The notes: generated by a model not told the origin, from the letters alone. 59,765 bases of DNA from Candidatus Omnitrophota bacterium (GCA_016214265.1 JACROU010000047.1:1-59765), one strand, 5' to 3'. Shown: positions 3,001-25,835, counted from the first letter of the stretch. Numbers and translations: made by a program.

Positions 3001-4501
3001 GCTCAAAACCCTCGCGAGCATCACCGCAATTTCGGCAGTGGCCTTTCTGATTTATGGAACTCCGCTTAAGGCAGCTGCGGTTTTGCATATCGGCGTCAAC
3101 ATTGCGAATATTCTTATCTTTGGTTACTTCGCCGTCATGAACGATTTGCTGGGACAGTGGATGTCGGGGCGGGGGATTGTCAAAAAGCAAGTTGCGTGGG
3201 CGCTTCCGTTGGGACTGGTGCTCGGTGTTGTCACCTGGGGAGGCTTCAAAATGACGAATTGGGCGCTCCCCAAAGATGTCGCCATGCCGGTAATTGCGGC
3301 GGATGCCTTGCGCATCATTGCCATATGGGTCATGATTCGCGTTCGAACCATGCTCTACGCCAAAATGGTTAATCTCGTGCGCAAAAACGGAAAATCAAAA
3401 GAAGAACAGGAAAAACAGTTTGAATCCTTCTGGATGACTCGGTCACTGTCATTCGTAAAAAACTATTTCGTTCTGAAATTTATCCCCGCGGAATTTCAAA
3501 CCGTGGCAGAAGGCATCTTGAATCAATACTTTCAACTTTTCTACTCGTGGTCTGTGAATAAAGACGGATTTATTTTCTCCTCGAAAAAGTTTCGCGAAAG
3601 CAGGCTGGCCTTGGCCTTTTTTCCGATTACTGCTCCGATTGCAAAATTAAGACAGCAAAATTCAGAACCGCCGTCAAACGAGATTACCGCCGCGTCGTTG
3701 GGATACGCCCCGATGATTTCGCCAAAACTCCTCAAACGTGAAAGAGTGATTCCCAAATTCATCGTCTTGACCGCTCATTATTTCGCCGGAGACTTTTTCT
3801 ATTTGCCTGATACACCGGATGTTTTGAAATCGTATTTGCGCATTCTTGGTATCGTAAAACAACCAGTCAGGCTCAGTTCAAGCATCGCTGCTTTCAACCA
3901 TGACAATAATTTGAATCAATTTATGGATTATCTGAAAAAGAAACCCGGGCACGAATCATTTCCAGCGTTGGTCCACGAACGAATTCTGCGAGAAGGGGAT
4001 TCGAATCCATTAAGCAAGGCGAAATTAATCAGTGGCAGTCTGAGTGACGGTGATTTTTTGATTGCGGCTCTGAGAAGTCAAAAAGTGCCGCGCGTCATTT
4101 CCGAGCTTCACAAATTGTCACACGCACGGTTCAAAGTCCGTACCCTTCAAGAGAAACTGGCATCGGCATCCCGAATCACCTCGATGACTCGCGGGTATAA
4201 CATTCCTCTTGTCGCGGTGACAGCTTTCGAAGATCAAATTGATCTTGATTTTACGAGTGGAGACAGCATCAAATTGAATCTAAGAACTTTGGTCTCAAAA
4301 GGCGTTGATCCCATTCAAGTACTGGCCCTTATTTTCAAAATATCGGACGAACCGACGCTCAGAAATTCACTTTATTTCCAGTCGGGTTTCCGGTTTGATC
4401 CAGCTCGGGGCTTTTGGGAGGTGGGAGATGCCTTTATTGCCCTGCTCGACACAATTTACAGCAAGTATTCCGCCAGCCAGCAGTCCGCCCGGGCCGCCTA
4501 G
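2..4501 (+). CDS. Giant multidomain protein: Tiki/ChaN-like N-domain, ten-repeat beta-propeller, membrane segments (5' partial)
   Basis: The frame is open to the left edge without a stop, so the true start lies outside the window; the TTG at 98 is only the first internal start-like codon. Numbering from 98: residues about 10-440 begin with an AHGNYEAQ segment and LLLLEGG and end with GGYHSEG, a layout recalling the TraB/ChaN/Tiki superfamily (weak, from memory). Residues about 490-905 hold ten blocks of roughly 40 residues with the pattern FSP/N-G-(K/R)-F-L-x-V ... K-(L/V)-F-D-L, a WD40-like beta-propeller. Residues about 980-1100 hold several hydrophobic segments that should span a membrane. 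The last 350 residues I do not recognise. The middle block is visibly more AT-rich than both flanks. An envelope role is likely; no enzymatic function can be claimed. Confidence 0.7.
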   Translation, partial: CPGYALPVVELAAPSPKTPNIQIPAKLGKIELLSIAGPDAPSIIHIQTAHGNYEAQKNIQAILQHISKNYDVDLLLLEGGIGKLDPRLFNFFPENPGLNVKVADTMMQKSELTGAEAFLVETMSRGEDENIAAFGVENAALYREDRRAFQEVVRQREKSETFLKALEQQINQQAERSLNSVLKSFLKSFDAYENKQSDPISFYRVLKKEADRNLHLDLSDTVNQIQWPMLTRLLRLDSLKSKIDFEKAEAERHAFLVSMKSLGIYFSIPKIDVRQAFERLLESLPANFSFKPYKNFRLLIQSQILQEEIDSAQLFQESEQLERHIIDSLTRTKAEKETISRLENFRLLRKLFSLTLTRGELKTLMRKRRNIEPSVQNIRALFDTAITFYIDAGKREDAMFQNALSRMKQLHERRAILVTGGYHSEGLTQLAQENHLNYLRISPEINMTQNNRDYILAMMESHLEAILKLQTNAEIDRQGGNPDYFREQIKEAIAQSMGSDGTPKTVFSEQNFAQALETLKLLTLTGKDIVAVRFSPDSKYLFVEDSNSRRELFDLSLKKNAQYFVGNEIKSVAFSNNGKFLYVIYNNSIGKLFDLTTKKEIPINQNKNVQDAQFSSSDKFLIIRIYENTYVFDLEMPTSPAQEFRSWSGDGVSVGFTPNNKLLVQQAVSYGANNVEVSYSYFDLFAKQAYHLPVKSYPNEGVISQNGKYLYIDGGKAYPPKVLEIESQKDLQLPIGSDVGIAAFSPSGRFLVVIYSDSKPAQVFDLLKKSNRQLSSSSILHWDITFSPNSSYVFLVYKDGLSKVLNLETNTERPLKFKSQPQKVIFSGSTELVAAIYKDATAVIFDLNNCAKINIPLGNNIRRLSFSHNGRFLRVEYGPSYITESTKVFEVKTKYDLKRLIGGNTAIVTFSPDAHLILVKYEDGTEKLFDLRGIFLNPILRSATQKWGEKFSGNMAVLAQITKSGDINKVRSILQSVASSLGEDKQEKTNLIAQTKTTLALKTLASITAISAVAFLIYGTPLKAAAVLHIGVNIANILIFGYFAVMNDLLGQWMSGRGIVKKQVAWALPLGLVLGVVTWGGFKMTNWALPKDVAMPVIAADALRIIAIWVMIRVRTMLYAKMVNLVRKNGKSKEEQEKQFESFWMTRSLSFVKNYFVLKFIPAEFQTVAEGILNQYFQLFYSWSVNKDGFIFSSKKFRESRLALAFFPITAPIAKLRQQNSEPPSNEITAASLGYAPMISPKLLKRERVIPKFIVLTAHYFAGDFFYLPDTPDVLKSYLRILGIVKQPVRLSSSIAAFNHDNNLNQFMDYLKKKPGHESFPALVHERILREGDSNPLSKAKLISGSLSDGDFLIAALRSQKVPRVISELHKLSHARFKVRTLQEKLASASRITSMTRGYNIPLVAVTAFEDQIDLDFTSGDSIKLNLRTLVSKGVDPIQVLALIFKISDEPTLRNSLYFQSGFRFDPARGFWEVGDAFIALLDTIYSKYSASQQSARAA

Positions 4502-4612: not shown

Positions 4613-6160
4613 ATGCCAAAACTACCTATCGTCAGCCTGATCATTCCGCCATCGATTTTTTTGCTGGATGAGCGTGTGTTTATGAACCTTGGCATCCTGA
4701 AAGTCGCGGCTGTTTTGGAAAAAGCAGGATATCCGGTCGAGGTACTCGACTTTTCCGGTATCGAAAATTATGAAGAGGCGCTTCGCGACCACTGCCGGAC
4801 TACGGAGTCCCGGATTTTTGGCGTCACCAGCACCACGCCGCAAATGCCGGCGGCCATGAAAATTGCGCATGCCATCCGCAGGGAATTGCCGATGGCTCGG
4901 CTTGTTCTTGGCGGACCGCATGCCACTTTGGTGCACACGGCGTTTATCCGCGAACAGAAAGAAAACCGGGAAGCCCGCGCAACGCGAACTTTAAGATCTC
5001 TGGAAGAGGCGTTTGATGTTCTTGTGATCGGCGACGGGGAAGAAGCTATTTTTGAAGCGCTCCGCAATGATCCGCCAAAAATCGTTGATGCTAACTCCAA
5101 GCAATCGTCTTTATTTCTCACAAATCAAAAACTCGAAGAACTGCCTTTTCCAGCCCGTCATCTGATTGACATCGACAGTTATCACTATCAAATCGAAGGG
5201 CACCGGGCCATTAGCATTATCGCTCAGCTTGGTTGTCCGTTCGCCTGCGGATTCTGCGGTGGCCGCATGTCACCGTCACTGCGTGTGATCCGTACCCGCA
5301 GTTCCGATAATATTATTGAGGAACTCCGCATGCTGCATGAAACTTACGGATTTACCGGATTTATGTTTTATGACGATGAGCTCAATGTGAATAAAAATAT
5401 GGTTGAGCTGATGAATGGCATTTCGAAACTTCAGAAAGATCTTGGAACGGAATTCCGGCTCCGTGGTTTTGTGAAATCCGAACTGTTTAATGATGAACAG
5501 GCCGAAGCGATGTACCGGGCAGGTTTTCGCTGGCTGCTCACGGGGTTTGAATCCGGCTCGCCGCAAATTTTGACGAATATCAATAAAAAAGCGACGCGCG
5601 ATGAAAACACGCGGGCCGTCAGTATCGCGAAGCGCCACGGTCTAAAAGTTAAAGCACTGATGTCGATTGGACATCCCGGTGAATCTGAAAAAACAGTTCT
5701 TGAAACGCGTGATTGGCTGCTTGAAGTGAAGCCCGATGATTTTGATGTCACCATCATCACCACATATCCCGGAACGCCGTATTACGACGAGGCGCTTCCG
5801 CATCCGACTCAAAAAGGCATTTGGATTTACACGTATCAAAAATCCGGCGACAAACTTTACAGTTATGAAGTCGATTACAACAAAGTTGCCGATTATTACA
5901 AGGGCGACCCCGACGGTGGTTACAAGGCTTACGTCTACACTGATCATTTGAATGCCGAAGAGCTCGTCAAAGTCCGGGATTTTGTGGAACGCGATGTCCG
6001 GCAAAAACTCGGCATTCCCTTCAATCCTGGCGCGCCCGCCATTCGCTATGAGCATTCCATGGGGCAATTCGGAAAAGGATTACCGTCCAATATTTTGAGG
6101 ACCAGTGGCGTAAAAAATGAGAAATCGCAAATCAGCGTTTCCAAATACGCGACGGGATGA
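4613..6160 (+). CDS. B12-binding-domain radical SAM protein
   Basis: About 515 aa from the ATG at 4613; the frame opens at a TTG at 4583, but the first ten residues look untranslated. The N-terminal 150 residues fit a cobalamin-binding domain (LGGPHATLV near residue 100, VIGDGEEAIFEAL near 145). The radical SAM domain follows with the cluster motif CxxxCxxC at Cys208, Cys212 and Cys215 (GCPFACGFCGG). A downstream GFESGSPQIL and MSIGHPGESEKT are typical of the P-methylase-like/BchE group. These enzymes bind a 4Fe-4S cluster and SAM and often methylate or rearrange unactivated carbons in lipids or sugars. As first gene of a glycan/lipid operon it probably modifies a lipid or sugar intermediate; the substrate is unknown. 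Confidence 0.85.
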   Translation: MPKLPIVSLIIPPSIFLLDERVFMNLGILKVAAVLEKAGYPVEVLDFSGIENYEEALRDHCRTTESRIFGVTSTTPQMPAAMKIAHAIRRELPMARLVLGGPHATLVHTAFIREQKENREARATRTLRSLEEAFDVLVIGDGEEAIFEALRNDPPKIVDANSKQSSLFLTNQKLEELPFPARHLIDIDSYHYQIEGHRAISIIAQLGCPFACGFCGGRMSPSLRVIRTRSSDNIIEELRMLHETYGFTGFMFYDDELNVNKNMVELMNGISKLQKDLGTEFRLRGFVKSELFNDEQAEAMYRAGFRWLLTGFESGSPQILTNINKKATRDENTRAVSIAKRHGLKVKALMSIGHPGESEKTVLETRDWLLEVKPDDFDVTIITTYPGTPYYDEALPHPTQKGIWIYTYQKSGDKLYSYEVDYNKVADYYKGDPDGGYKAYVYTDHLNAEELVKVRDFVERDVRQKLGIPFNPGAPAIRYEHSMGQFGKGLPSNILRTSGVKNEKSQISVSKYATG

Positions 6161-6977
6161 CATTCAGGCAATGATTCCAAATCTGAAAGAACTTAACACG
6201 AAAGTCCAAAAACCGCGCTACAAAGAAGTCGGCAACTGGATGGTGCGCCACTTCGAACGAGACGCAGCGCTTTATGTTACGTGGGCACTGCTGCACACTT
6301 CGATTACAGCTCACCAAGTCACGTTCATCACGCTCTGCCTCGGACTGTTGTCTGCACTGATTTTGGCCCTGCCCGGCGCCGGAGGACTTTTTGCTGGCGC
6401 AATTTTGCTTCAGATCTGGTATTTATTTGATCACGTGGACGGACAGGTGGCCCGATACCGCGGAACCTCGTCACTCACCGGCGTTTTCTTCGACTATCTG
6501 ATGCATTACGTTGTGCATTCGTTTATTTTTCTGGGAATCGGCGTCGGCGCTTATTTTTCATCTGGCGGAAGTATTCTGATGCTCTTTTTCGGATTTATCG
6601 CCGCGCTTTTCATGGGCTTTCTTTCTATGTTTTATGACGCGAAGTGGAAGGCGTTTTACCACTGGTTTCAGTTATTAAAAATCAAAGAAGCGCAGTTCAA
6701 CTGGCCTGAAGACACACAGAAACAGGCGCCAAAGGCAACATCTTCCGTCGCAAAGCGTATTTTTTCGCTTGCTTGTAAACTAACGGAAATTCACGTGGTT
6801 ATGAATATTATTACAATTCTTTCAATCTTTGGATTGTGGCTGACATCATTCCGATTCGCTGAAATCCTCACCGTTTTTTATGCGCTTCTTTTGCCCACTA
6901 TTTTTATCATCAGAACAATTTATGCCGTCAAAGGCAATACCCTGGATCAGGAATTTAAAGATTTGGTGAGACTGTAA
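6117..6977 (+). CDS. CDP-alcohol phosphatidyltransferase-family membrane protein with altered active-site motif
   Basis: A 286-aa polytopic membrane protein with the CDP-alcohol phosphotransferase signature. In D-x2-DG-x2-AR-x8-G-x3-D-x3-D the residues are Asp105, Asp108, Gly109, Ala112, Arg113, Gly122 and Asp126, but the final aspartate is His130. That last Asp is the usual general base, so catalysis or substrate may differ. The family joins an alcohol (inositol phosphate, glycerol phosphate, ethanolamine or similar) to a CDP-activated lipid, or the reverse. The ATG at 6117 overlaps the upstream gene by 44 nt; an ATG at 6171 would remove the overlap and lose no recognisable motif, so it is an equally good start. 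The gene sits between the radical SAM protein and a GT9 enzyme, which suggests synthesis of an unusual phospholipid or lipid anchor. Confidence 0.8.
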   Translation: MRNRKSAFPNTRRDDIQAMIPNLKELNTKVQKPRYKEVGNWMVRHFERDAALYVTWALLHTSITAHQVTFITLCLGLLSALILALPGAGGLFAGAILLQIWYLFDHVDGQVARYRGTSSLTGVFFDYLMHYVVHSFIFLGIGVGAYFSSGGSILMLFFGFIAALFMGFLSMFYDAKWKAFYHWFQLLKIKEAQFNWPEDTQKQAPKATSSVAKRIFSLACKLTEIHVVMNIITILSIFGLWLTSFRFAEILTVFYALLLPTIFIIRTIYAVKGNTLDQEFKDLVRL

Positions 6978-18641: not shown

Positions 18642-19580
18642 ATGCGCGTCCTTTTCTTTGGTTCCAGCAATTTCTCCATTCCCGTTCTGGAAGCTCTTCA
18701 CAAAGCACATCAAGTCATCGCGGTCATTAGCACACCGGATGAAAAAAAGGGAAGAGGTCAGATCGAAGGCCCAACACCGGTCAAAGCCTGGGCACTTCAA
18801 CATGGTCTCGAATGTCTGACTCCGGAGAAACTCAAAGCCGAAGATTTTCTTGCCGCGATAAAATTACTAAAACCTGAATTAGGTGTCATCGCTTCTTACG
18901 GAAAATTGGTTCCAGATTCATTACTCGCGATTTCTTCCGTTGCCAATTTGAATGTGCATCCTTCATTACTTCCACAGTACCGTGGAGCCTCCCCAATTCA
19001 ATCGGCAATTTTGCACGGCGATACCGTAACCGGTGTCAGTATTATGCGTCCCGTGGCAAAAATGGACGCGGGCGATGTACTGATTCAAAAATCCTTAGCG
19101 ATAGGCCCCGATGAAAATGCCGAAGAATTATCCGTTCGCCTGTCACAGCTAGGCGCCGAATTACTTCTGGAAGGAATCCAGGTCCTCGAAAAAAATCCAA
19201 ATTCCAATTTCCATATCCAGGATGACAAACTGGCCACTCTCTGTGGAAAGATCACGAAAGAAGACGGCCTCTTCACCTGGAATGACCCCGCTTCATTAAT
19301 ACACCGCAAAATAAGAGCCTTCGTCCCCTGGCCCGTCGCCCACACCCACTTCGCGAACCAGCCCTTGAGAATTTTCAAATCCGAACTGGGCGACCCAACC
19401 CCGAGCGAAAAACCTCCCGGAACCCTATTAGCCACCAGCAAACACCGCGGTTTCCTCATCCAAACCGGAGAAGGAAGCCTGTGGATCCTTCAAGTCCAGC
19501 AAGCCGGCAAAAACATCGTAAACGGCTTCCAATTTCTAATGGGGCAGAGGTTGAAGGAAGGGATGAGTCTTACGGCGTAG
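18642..19580 (+). CDS. fmt: Methionyl-tRNA formyltransferase, with a compositionally distinct 3' end
   Basis: About 312 aa from the ATG at 18642 (MRVLFFGSSNFSIPVL). The formyl-THF domain has NVHPSLLPQYRGASPIQSAI and GVSIM; the C-terminal OB-like domain starts near residue 205 and ends FLMGQRLKEGMSL. It formylates Met-tRNAi. The last roughly 250-300 nt are strikingly C-rich at third positions compared with the rest of the gene. A second, diverged copy of the last 31 codons lies 1.7 kb downstream at 21195-21290, after the AbiE pair. I infer that the 3' end was replaced by an incoming cassette and the old end displaced. Confidence 0.95.
   Translation: MRVLFFGSSNFSIPVLEALHKAHQVIAVISTPDEKKGRGQIEGPTPVKAWALQHGLECLTPEKLKAEDFLAAIKLLKPELGVIASYGKLVPDSLLAISSVANLNVHPSLLPQYRGASPIQSAILHGDTVTGVSIMRPVAKMDAGDVLIQKSLAIGPDENAEELSVRLSQLGAELLLEGIQVLEKNPNSNFHIQDDKLATLCGKITKEDGLFTWNDPASLIHRKIRAFVPWPVAHTHFANQPLRIFKSELGDPTPSEKPPGTLLATSKHRGFLIQTGEGSLWILQVQQAGKNIVNGFQFLMGQRLKEGMSLTA
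19539..19554 (+). repeat. Left copy of 16-bp direct repeat (fmt tail)
   Basis: ATGGGGCAGAGGTTGA occurs here inside the intact fmt 3' end and again at 21255-21270 in the displaced fmt tail. It is the longest identical stretch between two otherwise diverged tails and brackets the AbiE pair. It may mark the recombination site; alternatively it is only the best conserved piece of the Fmt C-terminus. Confidence 0.55.
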
Positions 19581-19601
19581 TTGTCATTCCCGCGCTTGTC
19601 C

Positions 19602-19647
19602 TTGACTATCCCGAATATACTGTATATACTTATTAATAAGTATATAC
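19602..19647 (+). promoter_or_regulatory. AbiE promoter with 26-bp perfect palindromic operator
   Basis: TTGACT (19602-19607), 17-nt spacer, TATACT (19625-19630). A perfect palindrome with half-site GTATATACTTATT covers 19622-19647, spanning the -10 and the predicted start of transcription; a related ATATACTG lies just upstream. AbiEi-type antitoxins are known to autorepress through inverted repeats at their promoter, so this is the likely operator. The leader to the ATG at 19665 is about 28 nt and lacks a clear Shine-Dalgarno. Confidence 0.75.
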
Positions 19648-19664
19648 GAAATATACGGATTCCT

Positions 19665-20267
19665 ATGAAACCCAAAAATATAGATCTGATCAAATTTTTC
19701 AAGCAGCGGCACGGAGTAGCCCGATTTTCAGATATTCTGAAAGAAGGCTTTCATCCCGACACACTCCGCATGCGGGTAAAAGAGGGCGAGATTAAAAAAA
19801 TTGGACACGGCCTTTATCAACAAACCAGTTTTTCTGAGCCCACCAATCCCGACCTGGTAACCGCAGTGCTTCAAGCTCCTAAAGCGGTTGTGTGCCTCAT
19901 TTCAGCGCTTTCTTTTCATGAAGTCACGAACGAAATTCCACATTCTGTAGATCTGGCTATTCCCGCAGGCTCGCGTGCGAACAAAATTGATTATCCGCCA
20001 GTCAAGTTTCATCGTTTCTCGTCAGCCGCCTGGAAAGCGGGAATTGAAGAACATAAAATGAGCGGTCATGTTGTAAAAATTTACAATCTCGCAAAGACGG
20101 TGGCCGATTGCTTTAAATTTAGAAACAAAATCGGCATGGATGTCGCCCGCTCCGCGCTTAAAGAAGCCGTTCTTGAAAGAAAAATTTCTCCGGAAGAAAT
20201 CATGCGCTTCGCGAAAATCTGCAGGGTGCATAACGTTATTAAACCTATTCTGGAATCAATCCTGTGA
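19665..20267 (+). CDS. AbiEi-family antitoxin / transcriptional regulator
   Basis: About 200 aa from the ATG at 19665; an upstream in-frame start at 19581 would run through the promoter palindrome and is rejected. Residues 1-55 form a winged helix-turn-helix (FFKQRHGVARFSDILKEGF, then KKIGHGLYQ), and the rest is the AbiEi C-terminal antitoxin domain (LISALSFHEVTNEIP, YNLAKTVADCFKFRNKIG). It should bind its own promoter and counteract the downstream nucleotidyltransferase, as in type IV AbiE systems. It overlaps the toxin gene by GTGA. Confidence 0.85.
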   Translation: MKPKNIDLIKFFKQRHGVARFSDILKEGFHPDTLRMRVKEGEIKKIGHGLYQQTSFSEPTNPDLVTAVLQAPKAVVCLISALSFHEVTNEIPHSVDLAIPAGSRANKIDYPPVKFHRFSSAAWKAGIEEHKMSGHVVKIYNLAKTVADCFKFRNKIGMDVARSALKEAVLERKISPEEIMRFAKICRVHNVIKPILESIL

Positions 20268-21178
20268 AAACAGAAATCAAAAATATCGAAGCTTCGGTGC
20301 GGGCACGGCTTCAGAATAAAGCCCGCGAAACAAACCGGCCTTTCGCGGAAATTATGCGGTATTACGCGATGGAGCGCTTTCTTTACCGTTTTGGCCAATC
20401 AGAATCTGCCGACCAATTCATTCTGAAAGGTGCTTTGATGTTTACCGTTTGGCAGGTGCCCGAGCGGCGGGCGACACTCGACATTGATTTTTTGGCTCGT
20501 TATGACAATGAAATCACGAAGATCGAACACGTAATGCGTAATGTCTGCAAGGTAAGAGTGGTGCCAGACGGTCTTGTGTTCGATCCGGACTCCGTTGAGG
20601 GCAAAAGAATCAAAGAAAACGCAGATTATCAAGGCGTAAGAATCAATTTCAGGGCGATGCTTGAGCGCTCGCGCGTTCCCATGCAAATCGATATAGGTTT
20701 CGGCGATATTATTTATCCGAAGCCAAAAGTGGTTGATTATCCCGTGATTCTAGAATTCCCTAAACCCCACTTGAAGGGATATACCATTGAAAGCGTAGTC
20801 GCTGAAAAGTTTGAAGCCATGATTAAACTAGGTTCGTTGAACAGCCGAATGAAAGATTTTTATGACGTTTGGCTAATGACTCGGCAATTTGATTTCAAAG
20901 GCGCTGACTTGGCGGAAGCACTAAAGCGCACATTTCATCATCGAAAGAGAGAATTGCCTCAAAAGAAGCCCTTATTTGTTGAGGATATTTACGATCCGAA
21001 GTCAGACCGGCAGACATTGTGGAAAGCTTTTCTGACCAAAGGTGGCATCAAACACGCGCCCGAGAGTTTGAAAGAAACAGCTGAGCGAATAGAAAAATTT
21101 CTCATAACTCCCTTGGCGGCAATTTCTAAAAACCACCCATTTAAATTGGAGTGGAACGCACCAGGGCCGTGGAAGTAG
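20264..21178 (+). CDS. AbiEii-family nucleotidyltransferase toxin
   Basis: A 304-aa protein with GTG start overlapping the antitoxin stop. The nucleotidyltransferase-fold motif is FILKGALMF followed after about a dozen residues by TLDIDFLAR, giving the Asp-x-Asp metal pair; a third acidic position lies in QIDIGFGD, and the motif with Lys/Asp in RMKDFYDVWLM is typical of the AbiEii (DUF1814) family. Characterised members are GTP-binding nucleotidyltransferases that arrest growth, some by modifying tRNA, and in lactococci abort phage infection. The pair is bounded by fmt sequence on both sides, so it appears as a self-contained 1.7-kb insertion. Confidence 0.87.
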   Translation: MKTEIKNIEASVRARLQNKARETNRPFAEIMRYYAMERFLYRFGQSESADQFILKGALMFTVWQVPERRATLDIDFLARYDNEITKIEHVMRNVCKVRVVPDGLVFDPDSVEGKRIKENADYQGVRINFRAMLERSRVPMQIDIGFGDIIYPKPKVVDYPVILEFPKPHLKGYTIESVVAEKFEAMIKLGSLNSRMKDFYDVWLMTRQFDFKGADLAEALKRTFHHRKRELPQKKPLFVEDIYDPKSDRQTLWKAFLTKGGIKHAPESLKETAERIEKFLITPLAAISKNHPFKLEWNAPGPWK

Positions 21179-21194
21179 AATTAAAAAAGAAACG

Positions 21195-21290
21195 CTATGG
21201 ATTCTCGAAGTGCAGCAAGCCGGGAAGAATATTGTGAATGGGTTTCAGTTTTTGATGGGGCAGAGGTTGACAGCGGGGAAGAGTCTTTAG
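21195..21290 (+). pseudogene. Displaced 3' fragment of fmt
   Basis: In frame, these 31 codons read LWILEVQQAGKNIVNG then FQFLMGQRLTAGKSL and a TAG stop. They match the last residues of the intact Fmt at 27 of 31 positions, but most third codon positions differ, so this is not a recent tandem copy. No start or upstream fmt sequence is present. It is best read as the former 3' end of the host gene, left behind when the AbiE cassette arrived with its own fmt end. Confidence 0.82.
21255..21270 (+). repeat. Right copy of 16-bp direct repeat (displaced fmt tail)
   Basis: ATGGGGCAGAGGTTGA, identical to 19539-19554 and 1716 bp from it. Together the two copies delimit the AbiE cassette. Confidence 0.55.
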
Positions 21291-21358: not shown

Positions 21359-21610
21359 ATGATGAAATCGAATACGCAACAGTTAAACATAGAAATTGAT
21401 GCAAAGCTCCTTAGCGATCTCGAAGATCTTAAGAAGCGAACCAAAGTTTCCAAAAGGGCACTTGTGGAGCAATCGATTCGTCTTCTTATCGAGCAACATC
21501 GAACGATGGCTGCGGTTTACAAAAATGGAGTTGTAGATAATCAGTTTGTTATGATGGTTAATGAAACCATGAAGCAATATGGTCAGGCTATGAAAAAATT
21601 AGCGCCCTAA
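21359..21610 (+). CDS. Ribbon-helix-helix (CopG/Arc-type) small protein
   Basis: An 83-aa protein. Residues 8-50 fit an RHH fold: the strand QLNIEIDAKLL, then helix DLEDLKKRT, then VSKRALVEQSIRLLIEQH. Such proteins are dimeric DNA binders and frequent antitoxins. GGGGGAA at 21351-21357 precedes two adjacent ATGs, at 21359 and 21362; either could be used. No intact toxin follows. Directly after the stop lies a fragment of a ClpP-like protease, so the original partner may have decayed. Confidence 0.7.
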   Translation: MMKSNTQQLNIEIDAKLLSDLEDLKKRTKVSKRALVEQSIRLLIEQHRTMAAVYKNGVVDNQFVMMVNETMKQYGQAMKKLAP

Positions 21611-22022: not shown

Positions 22023-22106
22023 ATGCCAATTCCTCAATCTCGAATTTTGATGCCCCTTTTAGATTTAGAATTGCAACCAGAGGAGGAGCTTGTTGATGAG
22101 GAATAA
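22023..22106 (+). CDS. 27-codon ORF with strong ribosome-binding site, coupled to the next gene
   Basis: AAAGGAG at 22011-22017 precedes the ATG at 22023 and a 27-residue frame (MPIPQSRILMPLLDL, then an acidic tail) ending at TAA 22104-22106. The start resembles the N-terminus of Mrr-type restriction proteins, so it could be a decayed gene start. It could also be a short leader peptide: its end overlaps the ATG of the nuclease gene at 22096. Confidence 0.4.
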   Translation: MPIPQSRILMPLLDLELQPEEELVDEE

Positions 22107-23187
22107 CACAAATAAAAGACACTGGATTCCCGCCTTCGCGGGAATGACAACACTCATTCTCGCATTCGTCACTCCCGCTTTTTCAGCTCCTGAAGTTCAA
22201 ACCTACGATCAACTCCTAAACGCAATTCGTGATGTTCGAGTAGAAACTCAAAACAGAATTGAAAAGGCTGTTGATCAAGAGAAAGTGCGAGAGGCTTGGG
22301 AGACGGGGAAGCTAATTGATGAGCATGTGCTTCAGCATAAGGATCGGGCAGACTATGGTGAGAAAGTACTTCAGCGTCTTGCCGTCGATATTGGTTCGAG
22401 TGAGACCGAATTAAGATTCATGCTCCAATTTTTCCGCACCTACCCAATTCATCGGCCGGCCGATGAATTGAGTTGGTCTCATCATCAGGCGCTTCTTGCT
22501 ATTAATGATGACAAGGAAAGACAACAAATGACGGAAAAAGCAGTGCGTGAACATTGGAACAGGGATCAAGTCCGTGAAGAAGTTCAAAGACATAACCGAC
22601 GCGTAGAAACCGAAAAATTTCCCGCCGCCACGCCCGGAAAAGTTTATACGTATCGTGTGGTGAAGGCGACTGCAGGTCCTTACCTGGGCCAGTTAGGCGT
22701 GGATTTGGGATTTTCGAATTATTTTCAGCCGGACGGAATCAATCAATTTAAAGAAGGGGATGTGGTCACTCTTCTTAACGGAAAGCTTCAATCTGCGGCT
22801 AACAGTGAACGTTTTACTTACACGGCCTATGTCACGGAAGTGATTGATGGAGATACGTTTCACGCGCTCGTGGATTTGGGATTTAAGATTGTGACGGATC
22901 AGAAGCTGAGGCTCCGGGGACTGGACGCTCCTGAAATTGACAGCGCGGACGGGCGTGAGGCGAAAGAATTCTTGGAGAAGCACGGCGTTCGTCCAGGTGC
23001 GCGAATTTTGGTGAAGACGGTGAAGTCCGACAAATACGATCGCTACTTGGCGGATGTCTGGACGCTACGAAGCGACCAAGCTTCGAGCGGCAGTGCTCGG
23101 ACCCCGGGGGACGAGCGCTTCGTTGACGGTAACTATATCAATCAACAGCTCTTCGATGAGGGGCTGGCGGTGAAGGTAAACGAGTAA
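22096..23187 (+). CDS. Secreted DUF1016-N / staphylococcal-nuclease fusion
   Basis: About 363 aa from the ATG at 22096, with AGGAGGAG at 22081 upstream. Residues 1-32 form a signal peptide (basic n-region, hydrophobic core, FSA cleavage site) whose core WIPAFAGMT is the translation of a palindromic repeat. Residues about 35-170 match the DUF1016/YhcG N-terminal domain (WETGKLIDEH, LSWSHHQALLAI). A linker follows, then an SNase domain from about 240: GDT at 252-254, LRLRGLDAPE and YDRYLADVW give the Asp, Arg, Asp, Glu and Arg expected in the active site. Usual DUF1016 proteins carry a cytoplasmic PD-(D/E)XK domain, so this is an exported variant with a swapped nuclease. A segment with an inverted repeat interrupts the end of the SNase domain. 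Confidence 0.82.
   Translation: MRNNTNKRHWIPAFAGMTTLILAFVTPAFSAPEVQTYDQLLNAIRDVRVETQNRIEKAVDQEKVREAWETGKLIDEHVLQHKDRADYGEKVLQRLAVDIGSSETELRFMLQFFRTYPIHRPADELSWSHHQALLAINDDKERQQMTEKAVREHWNRDQVREEVQRHNRRVETEKFPAATPGKVYTYRVVKATAGPYLGQLGVDLGFSNYFQPDGINQFKEGDVVTLLNGKLQSAANSERFTYTAYVTEVIDGDTFHALVDLGFKIVTDQKLRLRGLDAPEIDSADGREAKEFLEKHGVRPGARILVKTVKSDKYDRYLADVWTLRSDQASSGSARTPGDERFVDGNYINQQLFDEGLAVKVNE
22126..22145. repeat. Palindromic repeat ('WIPAFAGMT' element) inside the signal peptide
   Basis: ATTCCCGC (22126-22133) and GCGGGAAT (22138-22145) form a perfect 8-bp stem with a 4-nt loop. This is the core of a widespread bacterial dispersed repeat whose translation is WIPAFAGMT. A half copy, GTCATTCCCGCG, lies at 19583-19594 just after fmt, inverted relative to 22137-22148. 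Confidence 0.75.
23067..23123. repeat. Inverted-repeat insertion within the SNase coding region
   Basis: ACGAAGCG (23067-23074) pairs with CGCTTCGT (23116-23123), and an inner CGAGC (23084-23088) pairs with GCTCG (23095-23099). The segment is in frame and adds about 18 Ser/Gly/Asp-rich residues between the SNase DVWTL strand and the conserved INQQLFDEGLA helix. It looks like a small mobile palindrome tolerated as a loop. Confidence 0.5.
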
Positions 23188-23198
23188 ACACATCAAAA

Positions 23199-23267
23199 TA
23201 CTAGTCCTAGCTAGTAAATAGTTGACATTTATCCAAAATAGTGTAAATTACTAGTTATGGCTAGTAA
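23199..23267 (+). promoter_or_regulatory. Promoter flanked by two TACTAG-N6-CTAGTA operators
   Basis: Site 1: TACTAG (23199-23204), 6 nt, CTAGTA (23211-23216). Site 2: TTACTAG (23248-23254), 6 nt, CTAGTAA (23261-23267). Between them TTGACA (23222-23227) and TAAATT (23244-23249) form a promoter with a 16-nt spacer. Site 2 contains the ATG of the next gene (23257). The two sites are likely bound by the XRE protein of this operon, with looping or occlusion of RNA polymerase. Confidence 0.75.
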
Positions 23268-23970
23268 TTACATAACTCAATATCCTCTCTATAAAGTACA
23301 AAAGCAGATCTTAGATCTGGTGGCTAAGCAATTCCCTCAGGTTTATCTTGTCGGAGGCACCGCCCTTAGTCTGACTTGCAATCACCGCATTTCTGAAGAT
23401 CTGGATTTTTTCACTCAATCCTATTCTTCCAAACTGCATCGTGACATTGCCGCATTTATCAAAAATGAAACAGGATTCCGGTTTCAATTGGAGGAGGAGG
23501 AAAAGCGCAAAAAGTATGTTCCTATGGCGGTTTATGAATTTGAGGTGGGTGAAGGATTGGTTCTAAAAATTGATTTTGTCAGCGACTTCGCGGAGCTTTT
23601 AAAACCGCGTGAGAAAAATGGCATTGCTTCAATGGCAGATATTTATTATCGGAAAATGTTAGCTGTCATTGGGTGGAAAGCCGGCGCGTCAGAAACGGGA
23701 CGAATGCTAGCCGGAGGCAGACAGAAAACGAAAGACCTTTACGATATTTACTTTCTGTCCATGAAAACCGAGAGACTAAGCGAATGGTTTCCTCAAAATT
23801 TTGATTTGAATGCTTACGAGCGGCTCACGGCCTGGTATTTGGGTGTTTCCAGACAGAGAACTGTGCTCGAACTTTTAGAATTGGCCACCGGCTGTGACAC
23901 AAAAGAAATTTTCAAACATTTTGATAAAGAAATTATTCAAAAATTAAACCAAAGGTATTTTAATATATGA
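23257..23970 (+). CDS. AbiEii/AbiGii-type nucleotidyltransferase toxin (second system)
   Basis: A 237-aa nucleotidyltransferase-fold protein. YLVGGTALSLTC then RISEDLDFFTQ carries the Gly-Gly and the Asp-x-Asp metal pair, LKIDFVSD supplies the third acidic position, and KTKDLYDIYFLS is the conserved C-terminal motif of the family. It differs from the AbiEii protein at 20264 in length and sequence, so it is a separate acquisition. The -10 predicts transcription starting within a nucleotide or two of the ATG, so the mRNA is probably leaderless; no Shine-Dalgarno is present. The downstream XRE protein, overlapping by ATGA, should be its antitoxin. Confidence 0.82.
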   Translation: MASNYITQYPLYKVQKQILDLVAKQFPQVYLVGGTALSLTCNHRISEDLDFFTQSYSSKLHRDIAAFIKNETGFRFQLEEEEKRKKYVPMAVYEFEVGEGLVLKIDFVSDFAELLKPREKNGIASMADIYYRKMLAVIGWKAGASETGRMLAGGRQKTKDLYDIYFLSMKTERLSEWFPQNFDLNAYERLTAWYLGVSRQRTVLELLELATGCDTKEIFKHFDKEIIQKLNQRYFNI

Positions 23971-24578
23971 CACGCAAAAATTGGCATTGGGATATTCGCA
24001 TTCCTTATTCAAAAATAGAACAAATTCTGAAACTGGAAAATGACCCTCGCTTTCCAAGAATTGCGGGGGCTTTGCTTTCACGAGTAGAGGATCCGAAACA
24101 AGTTTTTCAGTTGATTTCTCCTGCTTCTTTTTGCCGCCGCTGGCGCGCAATAGAACGAGAAATTCAGTCAGATGAATGGACACGGGAAAAAGCTTCGTTC
24201 TGGAAAGCTACTTATCTTCGCCTATCGAAAGAACTGCAAGAGAAAGGCGAGAAAATCCGACAGCCTGAGGTAATTGAACTGGATGATTTCACACGTGAGG
24301 TCATCAAGAAAATTCGTGACTGTCGAAAAAAAGCCTTAATGTCTCAGGGGGAATTAGCCCATTTTATGGGATGCTCTCAGCAATTCATTTCGGGACTCGA
24401 GAAAGGCAGAGAAAAGGTGACTTTGGAATTCTTAAAAAAACTCTCACAAGTCACTCGACAGCCAATTGAGTTTGATATTTTGCCAGAGGAAAACAAACCC
24501 GTTCAACAGAACTTCCTGCGTGCCGCGGAAGAAGAGCAGGATTCGTATGGGGTTAAGAAAAAGAAGAAAGAGTCCTAG
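23967..24578 (+). CDS. XRE-family helix-turn-helix antitoxin/regulator
   Basis: A 203-aa protein. The N-terminal 100 residues (WDIRIPYSKIEQILKLEND, FCRRWRAIEREIQ) are unfamiliar and may bind the toxin. Residues about 115-170 are an XRE helix-turn-helix: MSQGELAHFMGCSQQFISGLEKG, then VTLEFLKKLSQVT. The C-terminus is a lysine-rich tail. Gene order is toxin then antitoxin, the reverse of the AbiE pair upstream. It is the best candidate to bind the twin operators around 23199-23267. Confidence 0.78.
   Translation: MTRKNWHWDIRIPYSKIEQILKLENDPRFPRIAGALLSRVEDPKQVFQLISPASFCRRWRAIEREIQSDEWTREKASFWKATYLRLSKELQEKGEKIRQPEVIELDDFTREVIKKIRDCRKKALMSQGELAHFMGCSQQFISGLEKGREKVTLEFLKKLSQVTRQPIEFDILPEENKPVQQNFLRAAEEEQDSYGVKKKKKES

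Positions 24579-24638: not shown

Positions 24639-25835
<1,197 letters not shown>

Follow-up and report, generated by a model that had tools for sequence, protein, structure and literature searches.

How did an AbiE toxin-antitoxin pair come to lie between the intact end of a housekeeping gene, fmt, and a second, displaced version of that same end? The question is raised by a window of 59,765 nucleotides, the whole stretch of DNA that was analysed, which is contig 34 of the 2.3-Mb draft genome (102 contigs) of a Candidatus Omnitrophota bacterium; genome-wide comparisons cover 881 kb of the 2.3 Mb (38%), read as stretches. The gene order is priA, def, fmt, abiEi, abiEii, the second fmt end, older cargo and gapA, with about 5.1 kb of accessory genes separating fmt from gapA. 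The features of the locus are:

18642..19580, + strand: fmt, methionyl-tRNA formyltransferase, intact (Pfam PF00551, Formyl_trans_N, E 2.8e-37; PF02911, Formyl_trans_C, E 7.4e-27)
19257..19538, + strand: A+C-rich 3' segment of fmt (A+C3 0.81-0.82)
19471..19580, + strand: tail 1, the functional 3' end of fmt (direct-repeat family D1)
19539..19554, + strand: 16-bp common sequence, copy 1
19611..19658, no strand assigned: palindrome with 24-nt arms, 83% complementary (a self-match, inverted repeat I3)
19665..20267, + strand: abiEi, antitoxin and transcriptional regulator (Pfam AbiEi_4 E 2.7e-9; PADLOC AbiEi E 8.9e-70)
20264..21178, + strand: abiEii, nucleotidyltransferase toxin, complete (Pfam AbiEii E 5.8e-42; PADLOC AbiEii E 1.9e-100, 298/299 profile positions)
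21187..21290, + strand: tail 2, the displaced fmt 3' end, one open frame
21255..21270, + strand: 16-bp common sequence, copy 2
21359..21610, + strand: ribbon-helix-helix-like small protein, the first older-cargo gene behind tail 2 (weak RHH_1 match, E 0.0016, under the curated cut-off)
22096..23187, + strand: DUF1016_N and SNase-like accessory gene (Pfam)
23257..24578, + strand: second AbiEii-like nucleotidyltransferase with a downstream HTH partner (Pfam AbiEii E 9.1e-13, HTH_3 E 4e-10)
24720..25835, + strand: gapA (Pfam Gp_dh_N and Gp_dh_C)

By Pfam and PADLOC profiles, the two genes behind fmt have the organisation of a type IV AbiE system, an AbiEi antitoxin with a wHTH followed by an AbiEii nucleotidyltransferase, in frames that overlap by 4 bp. 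Judged by its sequence, the cassette is presumably a type IV AbiE toxin-antitoxin, or abortive-infection, pair in function. Because AbiEi autoregulates its operon, the palindrome at 19611..19658 is likely to be the abiE operator/promoter, and this predicted promoter-operator presumably begins directly behind the restored fmt stop. Further downstream, the AbiEii-like and HTH genes are probably another toxin-antitoxin pair; no relative of the RHH-like gene was found in 55 genomes. The earlier note had remarked that the locus carries no integrase, and Pfam indeed recognised no integrase or transposase domain in those ORFs of the fmt-gapA interval that were searched. As a separate observation, a 15-bp inverted match, GTTGTCATTCCCGCG, occurs at 19580-19594, just 3' of the fmt stop, and at 22137-22151, near the SNase gene; it resembles a dispersed repeat, 'ATTCCCGC', that is also present at the end of L114 in genome G002.

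The displaced end is readily recognised as fmt (tblastn E 6e-16 in a search of the 7 kb downstream). Its homology starts abruptly about 10 bp past the abiEii stop, with no fmt sequence ahead of that point, and relative to 19471-19571 it is 76% identical over 101 nt, with 27/31 amino acids conserved. The earlier note had drawn attention to many silent differences behind this protein identity, and the codons bear it out: the first 20 codons of the tails comprise 14 synonymous changes, one non-synonymous change and five identical codons, and a pattern in which 14 of 15 changed codons are synonymous has P ~6e-9 under neutrality or random change. Selection does not act on a start-less fragment of 31 codons, so the differences arose inside two working fmt genes. 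The codon pattern requires that both tails diverged as the ends of two functional fmt genes, which would derive them from two sister lineages, or from paralogues. A simple tandem or tail duplication, the outcome that the earlier note had named in advance as fatal to its reading, is ruled out by this pattern, as neutral drift of a non-coding copy does not produce it, though the tails do group together against every available fmt (27/31 identical, against at most ~47%, less than half, for any other). This grouping shows merely that no congener was among the sequences compared; scans of genome contigs and viral contigs with Fmt returned no close relative of either tail. Among 705 ORFs in the 881 kb of the same genome, no gene besides fmt has a displaced end, the remaining matches in that scan being intact paralogues or repeats.

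The two tails also differ sharply in composition. The earlier note described the intact fmt as ending in a C-rich segment unlike the remainder of the gene, and it does: over codons at ~19257-19538, A+C3 is 0.81-0.82 relative to a genome mean of 0.434 (SD 0.073), which places the segment first among 37,729 ninety-codon windows in the 881 kb, the next ORF reaching 0.72. The fmt 3' segment is thus compositionally foreign, and it was probably imported. The left edge of the segment falls at a change point at ~19257 (support interval 19086-19305), upstream of the tail homology; in strength this change point is only about the 70th of 605 genes, so the left edge itself is weak. Genome-wide A/C patchiness was considered as the source of the segment and rejected, the within-gene dispersion of 1.15 being like that of other genomes. 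The description of the displaced tail as written in the host style failed: its A+C3 is 0.19, a value as low in only 1% of 31-codon windows and in none of 267 gene ends, so that the tails are skewed in opposite directions. Elsewhere in the same genome, genes at 17929-19500 of L056, 12830-13639 of L138 and 10326-11450 of L058 end in 30-60 codons with A+C3 >0.75; no displaced tail was found downstream of these three.

We regard homology-facilitated illegitimate recombination with the DNA of a relative, anchored in fmt, as the best explanation, and give it about an even chance of being right. The incoming molecule would have been a linear fragment from a related lineage, on which the 3' portion of that lineage's fmt was followed by its abiEi-abiEii. 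On the left side, a homologous crossover with the resident fmt would have taken place at or close to the point where the A+C-rich segment begins; on the right side, an illegitimate joint would have formed within the resident fmt, about 100 bp ahead of the stop codon. The product would be a chimeric but complete fmt followed by the new toxin-antitoxin cassette, with the last ~100 bp of the resident's fmt stranded beside the older cargo (the RHH-like, DUF1016-SNase and AbiEii-like/HTH genes) before gapA. We infer that this was a single event rather than two, that tail 1 was incoming and tail 2 resident, and that the exchange proceeded without a dedicated recombinase. Several observations are consistent with this reading. 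That the top-ranking A+C segment and the sole displaced end among the 705 ORFs fall in the same gene argues for one cause; a composition shift upstream of the tail homology is what would be expected if a left crossover in fmt had brought in the 3' segment; and the abrupt start of tail 2 is a non-homologous junction, as at an illegitimate joint. The genome encodes ComEC, and DNA uptake and transformation are therefore possible. The earlier note's proposal of a swapped fmt end stands insofar as there are two separately evolved functional fmt genes with the cassette entered between their tails; its assignment of tail 1 to a donor and tail 2 to the recipient is unproven, since phylogeny does not assign these roles when the searched collections contain no congeners, and this counts against the preferred reading, as do a change point in fmt that is ordinary among genes and a composition of tail 2 that is itself odd.

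A further observation against a single event is a break at 19539. The tails share the 16-mer ATGGGGCAGAGGTTGA, identical at 19539-19554 and 21255-21270 as the earlier note had pointed out, and this is their longest common run. From the ATG at 19539 rightward, all 7 comparable codons are identical, whereas leftward only 4 of 18 are; the other 14 differ synonymously, as compared to 0/7 on the right (permutation p 0.0025 for a similarity break point at 19539). At exactly the same point, the third-position style of fmt turns from A/C-rich to G, or G/T-rich. The homology of the tails reaches 68 bp to the left of the 16-mer, in coding-conserved form, and in the right-hand last 27 bp about a quarter of the positions differ, mostly at non-synonymous sites, and the right part is therefore no recent copy. 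One event does not explain the break at 19539, and a two-step history, or one crossover within the 16 identical bases, may be considered instead.

In the two-step account, an insertion with a long (~100 bp) target duplication of the fmt end would have been followed by gene conversion, in which a diverged, A+C-rich fmt of another lineage replaced the upstream copy as far as 19539. This would accommodate the break at 19539, the 16-bp identity and the unique composition patch together, and long target duplications around restriction-modification (RM) genes are documented as far as the citing papers relate (Nobusato et al., 2000, as cited in PMC1643837 and PMC3031569). It demands, however, two independent rare events in one gene end, and it sits poorly with the non-synonymous differences in the last 27 bp. 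As they stand, with 14 of 15 changed codons synonymous, the flanking copies do not have the look of a single target, and could come from one only if tail 1 was later converted. We consider this account unlikely. The alternative of one crossover would have a circular molecule, bearing an fmt tail and abiE, integrate through the 16 identical bases in the manner proposed by Campbell, such that the left part of tail 1 and the right part of tail 2 are resident, and the left part of tail 2 and the right part of tail 1 incoming. The two parts assigned to the incoming molecule do have the same G/T style, and the sole long identical stretch falls exactly at the style switch; yet the A+C-rich segment, the most atypical of the 881 kb, would then have to be resident, none of the searched ORFs was recognisable as a plasmid gene, and a RecA crossover within 16 bp is inefficient. 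We consider such an integration distinctly improbable.

Comparison with related genomes provides an insert-free version of the locus. The family comparison comprised three genomes, one without a detectable fmt; in G001, the family member that does have one, fmt is 56% identical to the gene studied here, and gapA lies directly behind it with no insert. The relative's junction is empty, and therefore the sequence from 19581 to ~24700 is extra in the studied genome. Thus, of the comparison of fmt loci that the earlier note called for, the empty site was found; no other displaced fmt end was detected in the same-phylum genomes searched, contig splits having been checked. An apparent second case in G007 was rejected, as two contigs overlap there by 201 bp at 96% identity at their edges, most likely an assembly split. 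The searched relatives also bear on a possible origin of tail 2 from a former tandem paralogue of fmt, the remainder of which was deleted as cassettes accumulated. Such an origin would explain purifying selection on both tails with no need of a donor, but none of these relatives has an intact tandem fmt, and tail 2 abuts abiEii with the rest of the gene entirely gone, which makes it very unlikely. An assembly chimera of two strains is barely credible: the genome is a draft in 102 contigs, and in other genomes contig ends do fall within fmt, but the joint at ~21180-21190 has no long word in common with tail 1 (the longest run being the 16 bp) and offers no overlap to a short-read assembler, and the contig runs on for 38 kb past the joint.

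We further analyzed the surroundings of AbiE in a phylum-wide draw of 384 genomes, 27 of which encode a related AbiEii, and compared upstream with downstream sequence at about 28 AbiE loci, several of which end at contig edges. One of these loci, L118 in G376, resembles the fmt pattern, at a contig edge. Here an intact tetrapyrrole methylase gene (Pfam), which we take to be cobJ, is followed by a pair that we read as MNT-HEPN-like, a truncated abiEii and then a piece of the cobJ end; this piece is 39 bp long, begins about 10 bp past the abiEii stop, has two synonymous and two conservative changes and is cut by the contig end, and its continuation was not found on another contig. The same geometry at cobJ fits a general recombination route rather than a site specific to fmt. 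Other loci look different. In G075 (L101), repeats of 45 bp, located where a truncated recombinase gene ends, flank AbiE and then a MazF-like pair; in G249 (L119), 40-bp direct repeats surround MNT-HEPN-like genes and an abiEii remnant; in G335 (L100), a MITE-like repeat lies on either side of AbiE; and an integrase-like gene is immediately upstream of AbiE in G125. Most surveyed loci have neither repeats nor mobility features, and tRNA and Rfam searches of the other repeat-flanked loci gave no matches. AbiE pairs thus move by several routes, of which the gene-tail pattern is a minority route.

Some details of these loci deserve record in their own right. The L101 repeat occurs three times (~3976-4018, 5783-5830 and 6546-6588 in abiE orientation) and includes the end of a large serine-recombinase-like gene; with AbiE followed by an RHH/MazF-like pair between the copies, it looks like a stacked array of toxin-antitoxin cassettes at the site of one recombinase. 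The MITE-like repeat of L100 is 129 bp long and 92% identical between its copies (-316..-188 and +85..+211 around abiE), has the terminal inverted repeats AAGACGCT/AGCGTCTT, and in its downstream copy breaks a phosphoesterase gene after ~28 codons. A gene for a calcineurin-like metallophosphoesterase lies immediately behind abiEii, or overlaps it, in L096 (5764-6489), L098, L104, L105, L111 and L112, is shortened in L100 and L110, and is absent from the studied window, which suggests a conserved AbiEi-AbiEii-phosphoesterase module in the phylum. L118 and L119, from one family, both have an MNT-HEPN-like pair ahead of an abiEii that lacks its 5' part, as if one toxin-antitoxin pair had overwritten another.

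The survey speaks to a site-specific origin, in which an integrative element would have entered at the fmt 3' end with the 16-mer as its core and a recombinase acting in trans or since lost. The cassette is flanked by 16-bp identical direct repeats, the fmt frame is restored, and related AbiE pairs do ride such islands, as seen from the recombinase-tail repeats of L101 and the integrase-like gene of L106. Against this, the ORFs searched in the insert included no recombinase, coding-conserved homology reaches 68 bp to the left of the 16-mer, which is not expected of a simple attachment core, and the other same-phylum genomes searched provided no second integration at fmt; the 16-bp identity is unusual, but lies within longer, diverged homology and is at most a candidate recombinase core. 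We give such an element only a small chance. With a single look-alike at cobJ, and with the other AbiE loci lying in integrase islands, between MITE copies or in repeat-free surroundings, a dedicated fmt-targeting element is unsupported. The earlier note's suggestion of a new type of mobile cassette, or of a site-specific exchange at fmt, is likewise unsupported, as relatives of this AbiE occupy many unrelated contexts and only the cobJ case repeats the pattern. A broader proposal is that integrase-free units of tail plus cassette carry AbiE or other toxin-antitoxin pairs in the phylum, each with a homologue of a housekeeping-gene 3' end (fmt, cobJ) that would recombine into the new host's gene, restore it and displace the old end, so that cassettes stack. 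It is doubtful at best: the phylum has provided two cases, one of which lies at a contig edge, and these are too few to show that toxin-antitoxin pairs carry such tails as a rule.

Taken together, the cassette most likely arrived with a relative's fmt end by ordinary one-sided recombination, which is a known way of swapping bacterial genes and not a new kind of mobile element, and the AbiE cassette and its arrival route both have published counterparts. Less usual is a housekeeping gene that keeps its function through an orthologous end of another lineage, with its former end surviving as a fossil. It is the fossil of a toxin-antitoxin pair entering a chromosome without a mobility gene, in which the displaced end marks the insertion point and reveals two lineages; a scan of many genomes for displaced housekeeping-gene ends could gauge how often one-sided recombination moves toxin-antitoxin and defence genes.

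Homology-facilitated illegitimate recombination has been proposed as the source of both the orphan Rhs/CDI tips and the 3' ends displaced in effector-immunity arrays of the Vibrio T6SS (PMC5361080). Like the fmt locus, the T6SS/Rhs arrays have a one-sided anchor in a conserved gene, a module that brings its own gene end and moves the old 3' end downstream, and no integrase; the fmt locus differs in being anchored in a housekeeping gene whose protein is unchanged, and in having received an AbiE pair where those arrays receive a toxin tip of the anchoring gene itself. In Helicobacter pylori, RM genes have inserted with long target duplication (Nobusato et al., 2000, as cited in PMC1643837 and PMC3031569). 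In the outline given by these citing papers, an addiction-type gene pair, a long direct target duplication on both sides and the absence of a transposase are shared with the locus described here; there, one target is duplicated, whereas here the copies are largely replaced at synonymous sites and must be from two lineages. With this mechanism already proposed for the T6SS/Rhs arrays, and with RM genes known to leave a similar footprint, the surprise of this locus is moderate. Integrase-driven islands enter and restore the 3' ends of housekeeping genes, as SGI1 does at trmE and related islands at dusA (PMC8409611). They likewise carry cargo behind a restored gene end with a direct repeat at the far side, but no integrase or mobility gene was found in the ORFs searched here, and the homology is long and diverged instead of a short identical core. 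Finally, hotspots without mobile genetic elements turn over through recombination in flanking core genes (PMC5635113), and, as between fmt and gapA, their accessory cargo is bounded by two core genes and includes no mobility genes; in those hotspots both flanks provide homology, whereas the right joint at fmt looks illegitimate.
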